A program made the position numbers and the translations under genes. From Candidatus Fermentibacterales bacterium (GTDB lineage: Bacteria; Fermentibacterota; Fermentibacteria; Fermentibacterales; JAFGKQ01), in the NCBI GenBank assembly GCA_016928495.1, contig JAFGKQ010000054.1, forward strand, positions 1 to 20,800: DNA of 20,800 nucleotides. The letters are read 5' to 3'. Below are positions 11,307 to 20,638 of this stretch, piece after piece (the stretch's first letter is position 1; the number at the start of each line of letters is the position of its first letter). The notes below the pieces were generated by a model. It had not been told where the DNA came from. It did no database searches and saw only the letters and a program-made list of their open reading frames with translations.

Positions 11307-12167
11307 TCAGTCCGGGTAGCCGGGAAGCCTGGCGGCTACCACACCCCTGAATATCACGTTGAAGTAGCCGTTGTTCCTGCCCGCGAAACCGAAGACGGGC
11401 GGATCCAGCGGCTTCATTATCGTCCTGTTGCCCTCGTCCAGATCCGAGAGGTCTCCCGCTGCCTGCAGCCAGGCATCCCTGGTCCACTCCCACATGAGGC
11501 GTTCCTCGGGAGAGCTGTTGCCGGGCATGAACATCGCCTGCCTGTCGAGCGATCCAAGCACGGTGCCCAGAGTCGCCACCATTACGCTCTCGAAGCAGCC
11601 CATGACTGCGTGGGTGTCCACCGGGTCCACCAGCCCGGCCTGCCAGGCGGCGAGCAGCTCGGCTCTGGTCGGGAGCCTCTTGCCCTGGTCGCTGAGGAAG
11701 TGCCTGGCTCCTTCCCAGGTGAACGAGGCGGCGGGCAGATCGAAGCAGGAGGCAGGAACGACGATCGAAGACCGGTCGGAGCTGCCGGTGAAGGGCGTGA
11801 ACTTGAGGAAGAGAAGGTCATCGTCGTACTGGCCCGTGACTATCATCGCCCACTCCTCGGGGCTCTGTATCGTGGCGTTGAGCCACGGCAGGACTTGCCT
11901 GTAGGATGCTGGAGCGGAGTCGATGAAGAAGGCCTCGAAGGTCACCTCCTCTCCGTTCAGGAGAACGGCTCCCTCCGGGATGAAGGCCATGCCCTCCGGA
12001 GGCTTCATCAGTCCGCAGGAGAGGCAGAAATCGCCCTCTACGCTCGCTCCGCACGCGGGGCAGACCCAGTCAGCGAGGCACGCGGGGCAGCCGGCCAGCA
12101 GCGCGGCAGTCAGCGCGGCAGCGGCCAGACGGATCCTGGGCAGGCTCATGTTCCTCACCGTCGTCAT
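11307..12167 (-). CDS. Exported SUMF/FGE-like protein with N-terminal zinc ribbon
   Basis: This 286-residue protein has an N-terminal hydrophobic segment with a good lipobox (LLAGC, Cys27), so it is probably a lipoprotein, although cleavage after CLA is also possible. A small zinc-ribbon-like module follows (CPAC 36-39 and CLSC 48-51). The rest resembles the formylglycine-generating enzyme (SUMF1) C-type-lectin-like fold: GMAFIPEG near 59, SFTWEGARHFLSDQGKRLPT with LPTRAEL near 165, an EWTRDAW strand and a C-terminal GYFNVIFRGVV strand. The catalytic cysteine pair of true FGE is not evident, so a binding or structural role is more likely. Its ATG overlaps the stop of the transporter gene as ATGA, indicating translational coupling. 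Confidence 0.82.
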   Translation of the reverse strand: MTTVRNMSLPRIRLAAAALTAALLAGCPACLADWVCPACGASVEGDFCLSCGLMKPPEGMAFIPEGAVLLNGEEVTFEAFFIDSAPASYRQVLPWLNATIQSPEEWAMIVTGQYDDDLLFLKFTPFTGSSDRSSIVVPASCFDLPAASFTWEGARHFLSDQGKRLPTRAELLAAWQAGLVDPVDTHAVMGCFESVMVATLGTVLGSLDRQAMFMPGNSSPEERLMWEWTRDAWLQAAGDLSDLDEGNRTIMKPLDPPVFGFAGRNNGYFNVIFRGVVAARLPGYPD

Positions 12168-12880
12168 GCGTTCGTCTCACCTCTCTCGATCAGCTCCCCC
12201 CTTGCCAGGGCGATCCTTCGCCCCAGGTACATGAAGGGCGTATCCATCATCGCCACGGCCAGCTTCATCACATAGGTGCTTATCAGTATCTCGATGAACG
12301 GCTGCGTTCCCACGACACCATAGAACGCCACCGTGCAGAAGATGGCGGTGTCTATGAGCTGGCTCACTGCCGTCGAGAAGTTGTTGCGAAGCCAGAGGTG
12401 CCTCCCGCGGGTCCTGGCCTTCCAGTAGTGGAAGGCCCAGACATCGTGGAACTGACTAACCAGGTAGGCCACCACGCTGGCCAGGGCGATCCTGGGAACC
12501 AGGCCGAAGAGAGTGCTCATCGCGGACTGGATGGCCTCGGCCCACGGGTCGGGAGCCACGGAGAACAGCAGCGCTATCTGGGTGACGCCGGTGAACATGA
12601 GCAGTGCCACGAACCCTATCATCACCCCGCGCCTGGCCTGCCTCTTGCCATAGATCTCCGAGAGCATGTCGGTAGCGAAGAAGATCGATCCGTAGAGGAT
12701 GTTGCCGAGTGTCACCGTGACCCCGAACAGGGTGGTCAGCTTCATGACCTGCAGATTGCAGAGTATCACGTTGGCGGCGATGAGAAGGATCAGGCCATCC
12801 CTCCCGAGCAGCCTGAAGAGCAGCAGGGCGACCGAGAAGTCGGCAAGCATGAACAGGATCCAGAGGATCTCGTTGCTCAG
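12164..12880 (-). CDS. yhhQ: Queuosine precursor transporter, YhhQ/VUT family, CTG start proposed
   Basis: This 238-residue polytopic inner-membrane protein imports queuosine precursors (preQ0/preQ1) in characterised members. It has about six hydrophobic helices and the family motifs LQVMKL, TLGNILYGSIFFATDMLSEIYGK and a C-terminal DTPFMYLGRR. The first ATG (12850) would begin inside the first helix. Homologues start with NE-hL-W-hhF-type residues, and the same pattern (SNEILWILF) is encoded just upstream with no ATG, GTG or TTG available. The only start-like codon is CTG 12880-12878, which overlaps the upstream TGA as CTGA, with GGGGG six nt before it. The stop TGA overlaps the next ATG. If CTG is not used, the gene begins at 12850 (228 residues). 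Confidence 0.88.
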   Translation of the reverse strand: MSNEILWILFMLADFSVALLLFRLLGRDGLILLIAANVILCNLQVMKLTTLFGVTVTLGNILYGSIFFATDMLSEIYGKRQARRGVMIGFVALLMFTGVTQIALLFSVAPDPWAEAIQSAMSTLFGLVPRIALASVVAYLVSQFHDVWAFHYWKARTRGRHLWLRNNFSTAVSQLIDTAIFCTVAFYGVVGTQPFIEILISTYVMKLAVAMMDTPFMYLGRRIALARGELIERGETNA

Positions 12881-15843
12881 AACTCGCCCCCGAAGGTGAT
12901 GTAGTGCCGGGGATGGGCGGAGATGTCATGCAGGTCCGTCAGCCACCCCACGTCGTGCTTCAGAACGAAAACACCGAGGTTGACCCGCCAGCCCAGTCCG
13001 ATGCCCAGGCAGATGTCCTCGAGCCTGAAGCCACCCTGAGTCGAGACCCCGCGGAAATCCGACGGATCGTCGAAGGCCGTGCCGGCATCCACGAACATCA
13101 CGCCGCGTGCCTGGGTCAGGGTCAGCGGCAGTGGTGCGTCGAGCGCAAGTGAGCGCACGAACGGAACGCGGAGCTCGGCGGTCGCCGTCACGTACCTCCT
13201 GCCTGAGATCGAGCTGTAGTCCATCCCTCGCAGGTAGTCTCCATAGTTGCTGTAGAACCCCACAAGGTCATCGAGGTCCTTGACCTCGCCGGTAAGGCGC
13301 CTGTGGGGCACTGCGCCTCCGAGGTAGAACCTCTGGGCATCTTCCCCCCAGCTCGTAGCCCCGGCGAGCCGGAGCGCGAGCGTCGCCCTCGAAGAGAGCC
13401 ACACGTAGTGCCTGAGATCGGCAGAGAGGGTCGCGTAGCTCGCGAACTCCCCCAGACCCGGGGCTATCTCGAACCATGCTCGAAGCCTGTTGCCCACTCT
13501 GGGACCTACGTAGCCCCACTGCGCGTTGTCGACGACGAGCCCGGCGCCAACGGAGAGGATGTCGGCGCTCGAGTCGGCGGTGGAGTAGGCCAGCCCCGAC
13601 CTCTGTATGTGACGGTAGACCGCCTCACCCTCGAGCTTCAGCGCCTGCGTGAAGGGATAGCGTCCGTATAGCACCCCGCCGATGTCGGTGTCACGTATCA
13701 GCTCGTCATGGTCGGGGTAGACGAAAATGTACCGGCTCGTTACCCTGAACGCGCCGAGTCCCAGATCGAACCTGTCAGGCAGGTAGAGGTAGTAGGCTGC
13801 CGCATCAGCGTCGGCTATGTCGCCCGAAACGTCCGCGTTTATGATCAGACGGTGATGGTTGAGCATGTCGCTCATCACGAACTGGGTGTAGCCCGCCAGC
13901 CCCAGGTAGGAATCGTAGCCGGCAAGCGCGGTAACGTAGTCCACGGACAGCCTGGGGGAATAGGGCCTGATCCTGATCTCCCGTCTCGAGCTGACGCTGT
14001 CAGCGCCTTGCGGCTGGCTACCTCCTCCGACGAAGGGCGGGGCCTCGGGAACCCGAGCGGGCAAATCCCCGCCGGCTCCCTCAGGGGCGACCCCACGGAC
14101 ATCGGGCTCCGGCCCCGTCTCCAGAGCTTCGCCGAGCCGGCCTACGGTCAGACCGGACTCGTCCACCCAGCTGACCGCCCTATGGTCAACGTCGTCGGCC
14201 AGGAAGACCCCGCAGCCGCTCAGCCCCGTGGAGACGAAGGTCATGGTTCCGGAGGAATCCGACCAGGAGGGGTAGTCTATCGAACGGTAGAGGCACGAGA
14301 GCTGCACCAGCTCACCGTCGTTCCGCAGGAGGAACAGGTTCCACATGTCCGGACGGGGCAGCATCATCATCACGCCGCTGTCGCACGCCATCGGGAAGCT
14401 GATCCCGCCCGCCTCCCAGTGGAGCGTATCGGGACGGCCCGGCTGCCCCGGGACCGTGGCCGGATCCAGCTCGAGCAGCATCGACCCATTGTAGCCCTCA
14501 CACTCGGAGACGTAGAGAATGCTGCCTTCGTTCCATTCGGGGTAGAGGTCGGCCTCGGGGCTGCTGGTGAGCTGCCTGAGGGACCGGCTGTCCAGCTCGT
14601 AGAGGTAGAGGTCCAAGTCCCCTTCACTCATGCCCGAGAAGCAGATGCTCCGTCCGTCAGGCGACCATGCAGGATCACGGATCAGGTCGAAGCGCGGCTC
14701 GAGATCCCAGGACTCGCCATCACAGCAGATGGAAAGGAAGTCGACGTCTATGTCGTGCCTGGCAACGACCAGGCTGTCTCCGCTCGGAGAGAAGCTGCAT
14801 ATGCGGTAGAGGTAGGAGATGCTCCGGTCGCCCAGGCCCTCGGTCGGGAAGTAGCGATGCTCGACACGCCCCGTGTAGGCCGACCTGACGGCCACGACGA
14901 AACTGGCATGGTGCTGCTCGACGCCGGCGAAGCTCTCCCCGCCCCTCGAGAGCACAGGGCCGGCCTGGCAGATGGATCTGCTCCCCTCCCGGATCTCGTG
15001 ACCCAGATCATCGGGTGACTCTTGCCATCCGAGCCTGGGCCAGTAGGTCTCCCTGGCCCAGGTCTGGAACCGCGAGTCGAAGAGCTCCAACGAGATCCCC
15101 AGTGCCTCGTCCAGTGCTCCTTCCAGTCCCCTGTCAGAGTCCAGGGCTCCCACGAACCTCTGGAGCCTCTCGATGCCGTACCGCTCCGCCATGAAGTGGT
15201 AGATCGCCTGTCCCTGCCTGTAGACCAGGAAATCCTGCCTGTTGCCCAGCTCCTGTACGGAGACTATCTCCTCTCCTATGACCATGTCCTTGAACTCGCC
15301 GTCGGATTGCGCGTCCCAGCCAAGGGAGGTGTACTCGGCCAGCCCTTCCAGAGCCCACAGGGGCGTTCTGGAATAGAGTATGTTCTCGATGGACCTGTGG
15401 AACAGCATGTCGTAGATGAAGGCATGGTTCATCTCATGGCTCACCACGTGCCTGAACTCCGTCCAGGAGCCAGTGAAGGGCACGACCACCCTTCCCTTGA
15501 AGAACTCGGTGACTCCTCCGACGGCTTCGCCCAGCTCCCCGCTGATGATCTCGGTATGGCGGAAGGAGGCCGGGTTCGTGTAGAGGATGACCGGGATGGG
15601 CCTCCCCGGGCGGTAGTCGAGGGTCCGCGTGAGCTGCTCCAGCTCGCGCTCGGCTATCGCTATGAGCGACTCGGCCTGCGCCTCCGAGCCCTGAAGGAAG
15701 TAGACCGTGACGGCCTCCGTGGAGACTACCCACCAGGGTCCTTCATCGACCTGGATCTTGGTTCTGCCGTAGCTGGAGGCCGAGACGGCGGCGGGCAGAA
15801 TGGCAACGGCCACGAAAAGGGTAACCGCGAGAGATGGCTTCAT
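12877..15843 (-). CDS. Secreted HExxH peptidase - Tol-like propeller - outer-membrane barrel protein
   Basis: This 988-residue multidomain protein starts with a signal peptide (1-23). A gluzincin-type metallopeptidase domain (about 40-290) has HEMNH at 136-140 and EGLAEY at 166-171, so both zinc histidines and the downstream glutamate are present. PD40/TolB-like propeller repeats follow (about 310-620, for example DPAWSPDGRSICFSG and ADLYPEWNEGSILYVS), then a Pro/Gly-rich linker, then a beta-strand-rich region (about 665-988) like the surface-antigen/Omp85-type barrel, ending in the aromatic-terminated strand HYITFGGEF. It is therefore expected in the outer membrane. The start is ATG 15843 with GGAG nearby; the open frame before it lacks signal-peptide character. 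It is the first gene of the run down to deoC. Confidence 0.9.
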   Translation of the reverse strand: MKPSLAVTLFVAVAILPAAVSASSYGRTKIQVDEGPWWVVSTEAVTVYFLQGSEAQAESLIAIAERELEQLTRTLDYRPGRPIPVILYTNPASFRHTEIISGELGEAVGGVTEFFKGRVVVPFTGSWTEFRHVVSHEMNHAFIYDMLFHRSIENILYSRTPLWALEGLAEYTSLGWDAQSDGEFKDMVIGEEIVSVQELGNRQDFLVYRQGQAIYHFMAERYGIERLQRFVGALDSDRGLEGALDEALGISLELFDSRFQTWARETYWPRLGWQESPDDLGHEIREGSRSICQAGPVLSRGGESFAGVEQHHASFVVAVRSAYTGRVEHRYFPTEGLGDRSISYLYRICSFSPSGDSLVVARHDIDVDFLSICCDGESWDLEPRFDLIRDPAWSPDGRSICFSGMSEGDLDLYLYELDSRSLRQLTSSPEADLYPEWNEGSILYVSECEGYNGSMLLELDPATVPGQPGRPDTLHWEAGGISFPMACDSGVMMMLPRPDMWNLFLLRNDGELVQLSCLYRSIDYPSWSDSSGTMTFVSTGLSGCGVFLADDVDHRAVSWVDESGLTVGRLGEALETGPEPDVRGVAPEGAGGDLPARVPEAPPFVGGGSQPQGADSVSSRREIRIRPYSPRLSVDYVTALAGYDSYLGLAGYTQFVMSDMLNHHRLIINADVSGDIADADAAAYYLYLPDRFDLGLGAFRVTSRYIFVYPDHDELIRDTDIGGVLYGRYPFTQALKLEGEAVYRHIQRSGLAYSTADSSADILSVGAGLVVDNAQWGYVGPRVGNRLRAWFEIAPGLGEFASYATLSADLRHYVWLSSRATLALRLAGATSWGEDAQRFYLGGAVPHRRLTGEVKDLDDLVGFYSNYGDYLRGMDYSSISGRRYVTATAELRVPFVRSLALDAPLPLTLTQARGVMFVDAGTAFDDPSDFRGVSTQGGFRLEDICLGIGLGWRVNLGVFVLKHDVGWLTDLHDISAHPRHYITFGGEF

Positions 15844-15941
15844 GGCTCTCCAGGAGCAGCTGTTGACACAGCGGTCTGTTCCGGCAATCTGACACCGACT
15901 ATAGTGATTGCAGGCCCGGTTCACTATGGGGAGAGGCGTTG
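15844..15941. promoter_or_regulatory. Divergent intergenic region with palindromic ACTATAGT
   Basis: These 98 bp separate the only divergent gene pair. An 8-bp palindrome ACTATAGT (15898-15905) offers the same -10-like hexamer TATAGT on both strands: 15900-15905 for the plus-strand genes (leader about 30 nt) and 15903-15898 for the minus-strand protease gene (leader about 48 nt). No good -35 is positioned for either; the TTGACA at 15863-15868 is 31 bp from the plus -10. Confidence 0.4.
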
Positions 15942-16331
15942 ATGCTGACAATCAGAGGCGTCACGGTATTCGCGCTGTTCCTGGCCCTGGGCTGCACGGC
16001 CCGCGAGTCCCGGCGCGAGACCTTGAGCATCGCCGATCGCGACTACCTCGAGGCCTGGGCCGGGAGGCTGCCCGGCATCTGGCTCTCCCTCCCATGCGAG
16101 CGGCATAGCCTGGACTCGCTTCTCCGAGCTCGCGGAACCTCTCTTCCGGAGCTCGAGGAGCTGATCGACAGGTGTAACGCCAACCCGGAGAACTTCTACC
16201 CCTACCTCTACCAGGCGGCCGTGGAGTCCATCTCGACCATCGAGGTGCCGGACCCCTCGTGCCTTCAGCCGCCGGCTCACGCGACAGGCAACGTCACCAG
16301 CCAGGGAACGGCCACGGAGGAAGGTCCCTGA
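15942..16331 (+). CDS. Small lipoprotein-like protein of unknown function
   Basis: This 129-residue protein starts at ATG 15942; GGGGAGAGG ends 5 nt upstream, and the preceding TTG (15939) is less likely. The N-terminus MLTIRGVTVFALFLALGC is a signal segment with a plausible but imperfect lipobox (Ala at -3, Cys at about 18). The mature part is short and partly helical, with a charged stretch (LPELEELIDRCNANPENFYPYLYQ) and a low-complexity Thr/Gly/Ala tail. I recognise no family. It is followed directly by the membrane/TPR gene, whose proposed CTG start overlaps its TGA stop, so the two are probably translationally coupled and may work together at the envelope. Confidence 0.72.
   Translation: MLTIRGVTVFALFLALGCTARESRRETLSIADRDYLEAWAGRLPGIWLSLPCERHSLDSLLRARGTSLPELEELIDRCNANPENFYPYLYQAAVESISTIEVPDPSCLQPPAHATGNVTSQGTATEEGP
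16316..16330 (+). promoter_or_regulatory. Shine-Dalgarno and CTG start of the membrane/TPR gene
   Basis: GGAGG (16316-16320) stands 7 nt before CTG 16328-16330, which overlaps TGA 16329-16331 of the preceding gene. No ATG, GTG or TTG lies in frame at a suitable distance. The next in-frame ATG (16400) falls inside the first hydrophobic helix and has no Shine-Dalgarno. Confidence 0.65.
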
Positions 16332-18103
16332 GCTCCGGGCCGGCACAGCTCGGCATCCGCTGGCGTAGCGCTCTCACGCTGGTTCTGCTGACCGTCCTGA
16401 TGCTGTGTCCGTTGGTGAAAGCAGAGCCGTCAGCCTGTCCGTTCTCCGTCTCGTCGGCACTTCCGGCCGCCGGAATGGCGCTCGCTGCCGCCTCGGCGCT
16501 GATCGCGGCGGGAAGGACCGGAAGACCCATCCTGATCGCAGCCTGCTTCGTTCTCTGCCTCGCGGCCGTTGCCCTGCTCTTCCCCCAGGCCTTCCATCTC
16601 TGGGGAGATGGAGCTCTCAGGCTCCGTAACCTTCGGACGCAGACGGGAGTAGCAGCGAGCGGCCTCTTCGAGCCGGGGGATACGCTGCTGCACATGACGC
16701 TGGTCGGAGCCGGCATGAGACCGGAAGCCTCCTTTCTTGTCACAGGGCTCCTGGCGGGCCTCGTCTACGCAGCCTCACTGCTGCTCATCAGTGCTCGTGA
16801 GCCTGACGGAGGACGGGTATCCACGTCCTGGAGAGCGATCGCATGGGCAGCGCCGGTCTGGACCGTGATGTTCAGCGGGTACGTGGAGAGCTATGGCCCC
16901 TTCCTGTCGCTCGCCTGCCTGACACTTGCCATCCTGATCACCGGAGGCAGAAGCGCTCTGGCTGCCGCTGCGATGGCGATGTGCTGCTTTTTCCATCTCA
17001 TGGGGCTCCTGTTGCTTCCTTCGGTTGTCCTGTACTGGTGGAAGCGAAGGAACGCGGAAAGAGCGGCAACACCTCTTATCCTGGCCCTCACGGTCTCCGG
17101 CTGCGCCGTCTGGCTCCTTCTCGCCAGCCCGGCGGCCACAGGGCATCCCGGAGGCGCCCTCAGCCTGGTCCATAGTCCGCTCCAGGGTCTTCGACAACTG
17201 GCTTTCACTCTGGTCTTCGCAGCACCGGTGGTCCCCTTGCTTCTCCCGTCGATCCGCTTGAAGGGACTGGCAACCGGAGCGGGGGCGGCCCTGCCATCGG
17301 CCCTCCTGGGGCTCGTCCTGGTGGTGCTATGGAGCCCGGCAAGAGGCATGGTCCGCGACTGGGACATCCTGGCGCTGCTCCTCATGCCTCTGTTCGTCTG
17401 GCTGATCGCCAGCCAGGACTTCGGCAGGCGCCTGACCAGGATGGCCGCGCTTGCCGGGTTGATCCTCGGCTCTACAAGGATGGGGATCTTCCACTCCGGC
17501 GAGCTCGCTCTGGAACACTACCGCCGGAGTCTCGCAACAGAGCTGTCAGCCTCCGCAGCAGAGGAGCTGGCGATATACCTGCGCGATCTCGGCGACCTGC
17601 AGACTGCCTCCGCCCTGTTCAGGGAGGCCTTCGAGATCGAGGGCAACGGGCGTCATCTGGCGCAGGCCTCGGAGGTCGAGAGGATCATGGGGAATCAGCG
17701 CGAGGCGCTCGAGCTGGCCCGGAGAGCGGTTGCGGAGAGAGAAGACCTCGCCGTGGCTCATCAGCAGCTTCTCTACGCGGCCTGTGATGCGGGATTGCCG
17801 GCGGAGGCCCTCTCCGCGGCCACTGCAGCGTGCTCTCTCGCCGGAGATGACCCCATGATCTGGGGCAAGGCCCTGGAATGCGCGGTGATAGGCAACAGGC
17901 CGGACCTGGGAGCTCTGGCAGCGGAACGTGTGCTCAGCTGCGGTGGCGACACCATTCCCGCGATAGTCACCAACCTCGGTGTGCTGGCATACCAGAGGGG
18001 CGACCGCGAGGAGGCCATCCGCTACTTCGAGAGGGCCTGCCAGTTGGACCCGTCCGACCCGCTCCCCAGGAGAAACCTGGAGATCCTTCGGGGACGTAGT
18101 TAA
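16328..18103 (+). CDS. Polytopic membrane protein with C-terminal TPRs (GT-C-like), CTG start proposed
   Basis: This 591-residue protein has about ten hydrophobic helices in its first 390 residues and a soluble helical C-terminus (about 400-591) with TPR-like repeats, the last reading LGVLAYQRGDREEAIRYFERACQLDPSDP. The membrane part has an acidic motif after an early helix (WGDGALRLRNL) and FSGYVESYGP, a pattern I associate with GT-C-type glycosyltransferase-like membrane proteins of uncultured bacteria. Lipid-linked sugar transfer is only a guess. The start is inferred at CTG 16328; an in-frame ATG at 16259 lies within the previous gene and would add an unlikely Arg/Gly-rich tail. The last four residues and the TAA stop come from the adjacent inverted-repeat element, and this is the only TAA stop in the window. 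Confidence 0.8.
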   Translation: MSSGPAQLGIRWRSALTLVLLTVLMLCPLVKAEPSACPFSVSSALPAAGMALAAASALIAAGRTGRPILIAACFVLCLAAVALLFPQAFHLWGDGALRLRNLRTQTGVAASGLFEPGDTLLHMTLVGAGMRPEASFLVTGLLAGLVYAASLLLISAREPDGGRVSTSWRAIAWAAPVWTVMFSGYVESYGPFLSLACLTLAILITGGRSALAAAAMAMCCFFHLMGLLLLPSVVLYWWKRRNAERAATPLILALTVSGCAVWLLLASPAATGHPGGALSLVHSPLQGLRQLAFTLVFAAPVVPLLLPSIRLKGLATGAGAALPSALLGLVLVVLWSPARGMVRDWDILALLLMPLFVWLIASQDFGRRLTRMAALAGLILGSTRMGIFHSGELALEHYRRSLATELSASAAEELAIYLRDLGDLQTASALFREAFEIEGNGRHLAQASEVERIMGNQREALELARRAVAEREDLAVAHQQLLYAACDAGLPAEALSAATAACSLAGDDPMIWGKALECAVIGNRPDLGALAAERVLSCGGDTIPAIVTNLGVLAYQRGDREEAIRYFERACQLDPSDPLPRRNLEILRGRS

Positions 18104-18255: not shown

Positions 18256-19496
18256 TAGCCGCGGGAGATGATGCGGGCAAGGTCTCTCCACATGACCAGG
18301 ACCAGGATCGAGAGGATGATGAAGAAGCCGATCTGTTGAGCGATCTGGATCTTCCTTCGAGAGAGGGGCCTTCCGAAGATGCCCTCGAAGAGCAGGAAGA
18401 TGACGTGGCCTCCGTCCAGGATGGGAAGTGGAAGCAGGTTGAAGCCCATTATCGCGATGGAGATGACGGCCACCGTTTCGAGAAAGCGGCCGAAGCCCAT
18501 GCCGGCCTGCTGGCCCAGCGTCTCCGCTGCGAACACGGGGCCGCCGGACATCTCCACGATCTCCCTGGGCCTGGTGAAGAGCATCGCTATGCTCTCGTAG
18601 AAGATGCCCGCACCCCTGAGAGCGGCCTCGATCCCGTAGCGCACGGCCAGCCCGAACGGCCTCACCTTCAGTCTCACGGTCTCGGTGAGAACGACCACGC
18701 CCACGCGCCAGGTCCCGTCTATATCCACGGGCCGGAAGAGGAACTCCATCTCGGCCCCATCCCTCAGGACCTCCACCTCCATCTCGTTTCCGCCCTGGCG
18801 CTGAACCGACTCCCGGAACTGGCTCCAGGAGGTGACAGGTTTGCCGTTGATGCCGGTGATGAGGTCGCCGGGACGCAGCCCGGCCTCGTATGCCGGCAGC
18901 CCAACGGGAGCCTCGCCGACCACCGGGAGCTGCAGAGGCTCGAATCCCGGAACCTGGTCCGGCTCGATATCGTAGCCGACCTCCCGCCTGCCATCCGGAC
19001 CGCCCACCACCATCGTGCCGTTGCCGCCGGAAGCTGTCATGGCGGAGGCTATCGCCTGGTAGTCGGAGACCGTGCGGCCGTCGACCTCCAGTATCGTATC
19101 GCCCGGGGCGATCCCGAGGAGGTTGCCCTCGTCGCCCACTACCGTGGGCAACATCGGCTGCTGCTGGCCCACAAGCCCCAGGATGACAACGAAGAGAACC
19201 GCAGCCAGCAGCAGGTTCGAGGCCGGTCCCGCCAGGACCACCAGGATCCTCAGGTACCAGGGCCTGTCCGGCGGCTCTCCCCCCTCGGTACCCAGCCTGA
19301 CCTTGACGTATCCTCCGAGCGGTATGGCCCCCAGGCAATACTCGGTCTTCCTGCTCCTGAAGCGGACCAGAGTCGGCGGGAAGCCTATGGAGAACCTTTC
19401 CACGGGAAGGCCGACGGCCTTTGCTACCAGGAAGTGGCCCAGCTCGTGAACCAGCACGATGCAGCCCAGCCCGACAACGACAGCCAGTATGGTCAT
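18255..19496 (-). CDS. rseP: RseP-type site-2 membrane zinc metalloprotease
   Basis: This 413-residue intramembrane protease, in the best-known members, cuts anti-sigma factors and leftover signal peptides within the inner membrane. The zinc-binding HELGH is at 17-21 in the first helix, and the third ligand region, NLLPLPILDGGH, ends at His364 (Asp361 in LDG). Two PDZ-like segments lie between (about 115-190 and 195-260, with YEAGLRPGDLITGINGKPV). The C-terminal helix is near 385-402. The start is ATG 19496, overlapping the dxr stop as ATGA. The cdsA-dxr-rseP order is conserved widely in bacteria. The stop TAG 18255-18257 abuts the partial repeat next to the inverted-repeat element. Confidence 0.95.
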   Translation of the reverse strand: MTILAVVVGLGCIVLVHELGHFLVAKAVGLPVERFSIGFPPTLVRFRSRKTEYCLGAIPLGGYVKVRLGTEGGEPPDRPWYLRILVVLAGPASNLLLAAVLFVVILGLVGQQQPMLPTVVGDEGNLLGIAPGDTILEVDGRTVSDYQAIASAMTASGGNGTMVVGGPDGRREVGYDIEPDQVPGFEPLQLPVVGEAPVGLPAYEAGLRPGDLITGINGKPVTSWSQFRESVQRQGGNEMEVEVLRDGAEMEFLFRPVDIDGTWRVGVVVLTETVRLKVRPFGLAVRYGIEAALRGAGIFYESIAMLFTRPREIVEMSGGPVFAAETLGQQAGMGFGRFLETVAVISIAIMGFNLLPLPILDGGHVIFLLFEGIFGRPLSRRKIQIAQQIGFFIILSILVLVMWRDLARIISRG

Positions 19497-20638
19497 TCCG
19501 TCCCCCCGACCAGGCTGCTGGCGCGGGCCCTGGCCCAGGCGTCGGTCTCCCGAAGGGTCTCCCGGTCCACCGGCGCCGGGCTATGACTCGAGAGGGTCTC
19601 ACCCAGCACCCGCGCTATGTCCCCGAAGCGTATCCTCCCGTCGAGGAAGGCCTTCACGGCAACCTCGTCCGCAGCATTGGCGGCACAGGGAGCCGTTCCG
19701 CCGGTCCTCCCGGCCTCCAGGACGATCCCGAATGCCGGGTAGCGCTCATGATCCATGGGCGAGAAGGACAGGCCGGGCCAGCTTGCCGGATCGTCGCTCG
19801 CGCGGAAGAGGCTGGAGCAGCCCGGATCGGCCATCTCCGGCCAGGACAGCGCGTAGGCTATCGGAACCCGCATGTCCGGGCTTCCCATCAGGCACTTGTA
19901 GCATCCGTCCGCCAGCTCGACCATCGAATGGACGAAGCTCCCCGGGTGGATCAGGACTTCAATGGCATCGAGGCCTGGCATCGAGAACAGCCAGCGGGCC
20001 TCGATCACCTCGAAGGCCTTGTTGACCATGCTGGAGGAGTCAACCGTTATCCTCGGGCCCATGTTCCAGCTCGGGTGCCGCAGTATGCGCTCGGGTCCGC
20101 ACGAGGGCAGCTCGTCCCTCGGTATCCCGAGGGCGGCCCCTCCGCTTGCCGTGAGCACGATCCTCGCCGGTGGGCAAGCCTCACCGGCAAGGCAGCGGAA
20201 GATGGTGCTGTGCTCGCTGTCGACCGGGACCACGAGACCCCGTTCGATCGCGGGCCGGAGCAACTCGCCACCGACCACCAGGCTCTCCTTGTTGGCGAGC
20301 GCCAGGCGAATCCCACGACGCGTGCACTCCAGGCTGGCCTCGAGGCCGGCACTTCCCACGATCGCGTTCAGGACCAGGTCCGCGCCCTCGATCGCGGCAC
20401 CGATCGCCTCGTCCCCCGTGATCATGCCCGGCAGCCTCGGGGCCCCGGGAGCAGGTGAGATCGCGGCGACCACGGATGGCTGGTGATCCCCGGCCTGTTC
20501 CTCGAGCAACCGGGTGTTGCCGTAGCAGAGCAGGCTGTGAACGACCAGCCCGGCCCTCCGGCTTTCCGTCCCGGAGAGGATGTCGAGCGCCTGCCTGCCG
20601 ATGGATCCCGTGCTTCCCAGAATGGCGATCCTCTTCAT
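19493..20638 (-). CDS. dxr: 1-deoxy-D-xylulose-5-phosphate reductoisomerase
   Basis: This 381-residue enzyme converts DXP to 2-C-methyl-D-erythritol 4-phosphate using NADPH and a divalent metal, the committed step of the MEP isoprenoid pathway. Visible motifs: GSTGSIG (8-14) for NADPH, LANKESLVVGGELL, VDSEHSTIF with metal ligands Asp and Glu, the ASGG substrate loop, HPSWNMGPRITVDSSSMVNK (the conserved flexible-loop region) and EVIEARWLF. Length is close to the family norm of about 390. The start is ATG 20638, with GGGGAAG about 12 nt upstream. It follows cdsA by 34 nt and overlaps rseP by 4 nt. Confidence 0.97.
   Translation of the reverse strand: MKRIAILGSTGSIGRQALDILSGTESRRAGLVVHSLLCYGNTRLLEEQAGDHQPSVVAAISPAPGAPRLPGMITGDEAIGAAIEGADLVLNAIVGSAGLEASLECTRRGIRLALANKESLVVGGELLRPAIERGLVVPVDSEHSTIFRCLAGEACPPARIVLTASGGAALGIPRDELPSCGPERILRHPSWNMGPRITVDSSSMVNKAFEVIEARWLFSMPGLDAIEVLIHPGSFVHSMVELADGCYKCLMGSPDMRVPIAYALSWPEMADPGCSSLFRASDDPASWPGLSFSPMDHERYPAFGIVLEAGRTGGTAPCAANAADEVAVKAFLDGRIRFGDIARVLGETLSSHSPAPVDRETLRETDAWARARASSLVGGTE

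Follow-up and report, generated by a model that had tools for sequence, protein, structure and literature searches.

CTG is a known but rare start codon in bacteria, allowed in NCBI translation table 11 and normally a very weak initiator. In E. coli, CUG was found to be a poor initiator whose complexes are unstable, and discrimination against it was lower with the initiator tRNA variant M1 (PMC11497404). A selection in mycobacteria yielded hardly any CTG (0.03%; PMC4633059). Upstream of Caulobacter dnaA, a CUG that has a Shine-Dalgarno (SD) sequence binds the 30S subunit in vitro, as seen by toeprint, and is not used in vivo (PMC8443254). Switches of annotated starts to CUG are very rare, being recorded in 2 of 61,358 cases from AUG, 1 of 5,080 from GUG and 1 of 2,468 from UUG (PMC5622118). 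Two surveys of overlapping genes do not mention CTGA as an overlap class (PMC6728339, PMC10666635).

The locus analyzed here lies in a window of 20,800 nucleotides (the whole stretch of DNA studied) from an uncultured Candidatus Fermentibacterales bacterium; its features are listed in Table 1. The yhhQ product matched TIGR00697 with 213.2 bits (curated cut-off 50.95; 3e-63) and also PF02592, and is by these matches a predicted queuosine precursor transporter. Read along the minus strand, the upstream Omp85-type gene ends with GGC GAG TTC TGA (protein end GGEF), and the yhhQ frame reads CTG AGC AAC GAG ATC CTC TGG ATC CTG TTC ATG, the last codon being the first in-frame ATG. Fifteen codons without a stop separate the CTG from the nearest in-frame TGA upstream (12928-12926), and among them no ATG, GTG or TTG, nor any ATN codon, was found. 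This agrees with the earlier note, according to which family-typical N-terminal residues precede the first ATG and the lone start-like codon in frame is a CTG overlapping the TGA. Frame and homologue alignment together leave no canonical start that yields the conserved N-terminus, and a start of yhhQ at the CTG is well supported by these comparisons. The duplex of GGGGGCGAG with the anti-SD has a predicted energy of -8.6 kcal/mol, the match to GGAGG being imperfect. The start codon shares bases with the upstream TGA and lies in the -1 frame, which is the four-base geometry of NTGA pairs; the start of such pairs is ATG, GTG or TTG, and at yhhQ it is CTG. The junction works like an NTGA overlap pair yet falls outside the usual definition. 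We propose that yhhQ is read from this CTG, likely by reinitiation, that the codon arose by a synonymous change in the upstream gene and that the lineage tolerates it. We put the probability of this whole account at about 0.8, the evidence being computational throughout.

Table 1. Features of the yhhQ junction and of a second CTGA overlap in the window (SD, Shine-Dalgarno energy)
Feature	Position	Strand	Remarks
Start codon CTG of yhhQ	12880-12878	minus	Best-supported start; sole start-like codon before the conserved N-terminus
Stop codon TGA of the Omp85-type gene	12879-12877	minus	Shares bases with the CTG (CTGA)
Shine-Dalgarno-like GGGGGCGAG	12883..12891	minus	Within the 3' end of the Omp85-type gene
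yhhQ, predicted queuosine precursor transporter	12164..12880	minus	238 aa counted from the CTG
First in-frame ATG of yhhQ	12850-12848	minus	Rejected start; would shorten the protein by 10 residues and truncate helix 1
Omp85-type gene: Peptidase_MA, PD40/TolB-like propeller, Omp85 barrel; last residue Phe	12877..15951	minus	Profile matches
Second CTG start candidate (CTGA overlap), membrane/TPR gene 16328-18103	16328..16330	plus	CTG AGC TCC; SD -9.5

The earlier note had also pointed to two CTGA overlaps on opposite strands within 4 kb. The second was indeed located at position 16328, 3.4 kb away; homologues of its gene align from residue 9 (G005) or 13 (G002), and the first canonical start comes at residue 25. 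The AGC that follows both CTG codons did not hold up as a motif and is a coincidence, the other CTG starts continuing with AGA, ACT, ACC, ATC, AGG, GGC, AAG and others. Two further in-frame CTGA tetramers on the minus strand, at 11310 and 1946, are followed a few codons later by a GTG or ATG, which is the likelier start. Hence, CTGA alone means little. In the Omp85-type gene, the metalloprotease domain carries HExxH within HVVSHEMNHAF.

The strongest evidence for a general use of CTG comes from individual genes. The polA product, (CTG)KLLLVDAPGLLYRGHFAL, matches its profile from residue 2 (profile positions 2-888 of 889); its next canonical start is at residue 85, and GGAGG lies upstream of the CTG. 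Starts were compared base by base with those of relatives for polA and yhhQ. In all 22 readable relatives, anchored by tblastn, polA has an ATG or GTG at most about four codons away from the CTG position, and at exactly this codon one relative (G005) has ATG and three (G002, G004 and G006) have GTG. The xerC gene, which begins in a CTGA overlap, matches its profile from residue 3, with the next canonical start at residue 23. For truB the profile match begins at residue 12 and the first canonical start is at 31, and in rnhB the catalytic motif GIDEAGRGPVAGP lies upstream of the first canonical start. Without a CTG start, the entire signal peptide, as judged by eye, would be missing from the products of an rlpA-like lipoprotein gene and of an lptD-like gene. 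In the relative G005, the dxr gene (L118:1869-2981) opens with a CTGA overlap; its product reads (CTG)RKIAVLGSTGSIG, and the next canonical start is at residue 20. The dxr gene of the window itself (19493-20638, minus strand) starts at ATG. The tally among about 800 genes is five homology-backed cases (yhhQ, polA, xerC, rnhB and truB) and up to 13 candidates, or 0.6-1.6%. About ten further genes in the sampled third of the genome, polA included, seem to begin with CTG. CTG starts are a known rarity, and it would be unusual for them to make up roughly 1% of a genome's genes.

The genome, taken as a metagenome assembly, comprises 2.3 Mb in 337 contigs and is 81% complete. For statistics, 836 kb of it (about 36%) were sampled in stretches and genes were called with a simple gene finder of our own; several tests were tried, the p values given are uncorrected, and numbers are small. 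The 492 close co-directional gene pairs contained 56 ATGA, 37 GTGA, 24 TTGA and 50 CTGA in-frame overlaps, and 16 of the 50 CTGA cases were CTGATG, with an adjoining ATG. The genome-wide count that the earlier note had suggested as a check did not bear it out: in these 492 pairs, and measured against TAG/TAA junctions, the raw number of CTGA was not in excess of that expected from C-ending codons. The informative test was instead the coding score from the overlap codon to the next canonical start. Per codon, this score was 0.22-0.26 for canonical overlaps, 0.081 for CTGA without a nearby canonical start and -0.147 for negative frames (CTGA versus negative frames, p=6e-4), and a mixture estimate gave 0.61 (interval 0.33-0.90). 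In the GC-matched control, S. meliloti pSymB (62% GC), the signal was absent, with -0.086 for the CTGA class versus -0.156 for its negatives (p=0.35). Among 28 informative CTGA junctions, 8 show coding signal and SD strength equal to those of ATGA, GTGA and TTGA junctions. As an independent check, the SD energy of these 8 was -7.7, close to the -7.4 to -7.5 of canonical overlaps and, with p=0.012 and 0.004, apart from the -4.6 of CTGA lacking coding signal and the value of about -4.3 for CTGA read in other frames. Most CTGA junctions are not starts.

Other controls were less sharp. A same-frame XTAR geometry control (n=15, a small sample) gave no significant difference (p=0.18). CTG was modestly enriched in an unsupervised scan over all codons, combining SD and coding onset, and ranked first only with a strong SD (6 versus 1.5 expected, p=0.004); noise codons reached similar p values, and the control showed noise of that size as well. 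Genes without any apparent start were as frequent in pSymB as in this genome (24 of 681 versus 34 of 743), and weight was consequently given only to cases with conserved N-termini. The CTGA junctions of TatD-like, ribosomal S11- and L5-like and PHP-like genes were not counted, as a later ATG or TTG is evident from the protein.

The earlier note had ascribed CTG use to coupled reinitiation, and most candidates do sit in CTGA overlaps (yhhQ, xerC, the rlpA-like and lptD-like genes and dxr of G005), which would fit a lineage that accepts CTG only when termination and reinitiation are coupled. However, the CTG of polA, of a radical SAM gene, of an EamA-type gene and of an ankyrin gene lies 42-96 nt past the stop of the previous gene, that of rnhB 8 nt and that of truB 4 nt, and all six have a Shine-Dalgarno sequence. 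Since CTG is needed outside overlaps in polA, truB and rnhB, the property is a tolerance of CTG rather than something special to coupled reinitiation; the overlaps named by the note stand, its restriction to them does not, and the framing is too narrow. We regard a strictly coupled use as unlikely. We lean towards the view that CTG serves this order as a regular fourth start, in some 0.6-1.6% of its genes (among them polA, xerC, rnhB, truB and, in one relative, dxr), with an ordinary initiator tRNA anticodon stem and IF3, and that gene callers blind to CTG truncate the proteins encoded.

At yhhQ itself, the first in-frame ATG has to be considered, which would make the residues upstream a decoy. 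ATG is a far better initiator, and standard gene finders would pick it. Homologues were collected from 60 relatives and from public genomes (one scan), and they speak against this start. In near homologues the match to the CTG-initiated protein begins at its residue 1 or 2, and relatives have their start at the CTG position, or an ATG in that place. N3 and E4, directly after the CTG start, are invariant across the 11 homologues aligned (11 of 11), and NE-x-LW, like residues 3-10 as a whole, is conserved in the close ones. The coding signal likewise extends up to the CTG. In a structure model of YhhQ (mean pLDDT 85), helix 1 comprises residues 3-25; a start at residue 11, the ATG, would remove 8 of its 23 residues and leave 15. 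The earlier note had asked for this alignment and named close relatives aligning only from the ATG as evidence to the contrary. With near homologues aligning from the CTG, N3 and E4 invariant and helix 1 shortened by the later start, these comparisons favor the CTG; none of the near homologues compared aligns solely from the ATG, which we consider a very improbable start. Relatives of YhhQ with 57-60% identity were found on contigs labelled as Thermotogaceae and Desulfovibrionales MAGs (L015, L016), which suggests misbinning or gene transfer.

The junction of the barrel gene and yhhQ is also present in four relatives belonging to the same taxonomic order (G021, G005, G011 and G018), whose barrel genes are 48-59% identical to that of the window across the last 300 residues. 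In G021 and G005 the junction reads GA(A/G) TTT TGA and yhhQ starts at TTG, while in G011 and G018 it reads GA(A/G) TTC TGATG and yhhQ starts at ATG. All five genes retain the C-terminal Phe of the barrel; a Phe at this position is well known as a barrel assembly signal. As this last residue is fixed as Phe (TTT or TTC), a four-base overlap is limited to TTGA or CTGA. Phe codons of the genome are TTC and TTT in a ratio of 3968:220 (95:5), which would let TTG drift to CTG, and the yhhQ CTG is one synonymous base away from the TTG of G021 and G005. It could be argued that the C is a base error or reflects a strain variant, and that yhhQ in truth starts at a TTG within TTTTGA, as it does in these two relatives; the same one-base difference and the fragmented metagenome assembly speak for this. 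However, TTC is the preferred Phe codon, and at least four other conserved genes (polA, xerC, rnhB and truB) have CTG at the start that they need, so that independent errors are unlikely; we consider such an error slightly less probable still than a start at the ATG. The 15 open codons upstream of the CTG could be cited for a barrel-YhhQ fusion produced through -1 frameshifting where the barrel gene ends. We consider this most unlikely, since no slippery sequence or structure is apparent, these codons are unlike the homologues, an inner-membrane transporter as the tail of a barrel is topologically odd and the relatives have plain starts.

The reading that we prefer, a yhhQ start at CTG, can be put as a sequence of steps. 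A one-base change, synonymous in the barrel gene (TTT to TTC), would have converted a TTG start into CTG. Immediately after termination at the TGA of the Omp85-type gene, ribosomes probably begin yhhQ at this CTG, presumably aided by GGGGGCGAG, and the ordinary initiator tRNA would read the codon as fMet. The SD energies at yhhQ of the relatives are -5.8 and -5.0 for the TTG starts and -1.5 and -4.0 for the ATG starts (-8.6 for the CTG), and the stronger predicted pairing may compensate for the CTG. The codon would be tolerated because the lineage accepts CTG as an occasional fourth start in about 1% of genes, whether or not these overlap the gene before.

The initiation machinery offered no obvious cause. 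The anticodon stem of the initiator tRNA (L177:1469-1545) has the three usual G-C pairs, TTGGG-CTCATAA-CCCAA, and an M1-type change (alteration of the G30-C40 pair) is absent from it; hence, an M1-like variant was rejected as the cause of relaxed start choice. The same tRNA has C1-U72, still a mismatch, where E. coli has C1-A72. A lack of IF3 was rejected as well, IF3 being present in the genome. The infC frame (G000:C154:1141-1638) is open for 424 codons, versus 178-193 in relatives.

The yhhQ junction illustrates a simple evolutionary route, in which a fixed C-terminal Phe and codon bias turn TTG into CTG and both proteins remain unchanged. If conserved genes indeed depend on CTG while initiator tRNA and IF3 show no obvious change, this lineage would allow one to ask directly what determines how strictly start codons are chosen, and standard gene finders would systematically shorten proteins of such genomes in public annotation.

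In comparison to the YhhQ/TIGR00697 family, the protein matches far above the cut-off and its N-terminus resembles that of near relatives; it differs in the start codon only. With the coupled ATGA, GTGA and TTGA overlaps (PMC6728339, PMC10666635) the junction shares the geometry of TGA and start and a similar SD strength, coupling here being putative, and it departs from them in starting with CTG. Relaxed selection by M1 (PMC11497404) is alike in concerning discrimination against CUG and unlike in that the anticodon stem is normal here. Finally, against the rare annotated CTG starts (PMC5622118), about five homology-backed cases and at most 13 candidates were counted here among roughly 800 genes, a rough comparison that carries annotation bias.
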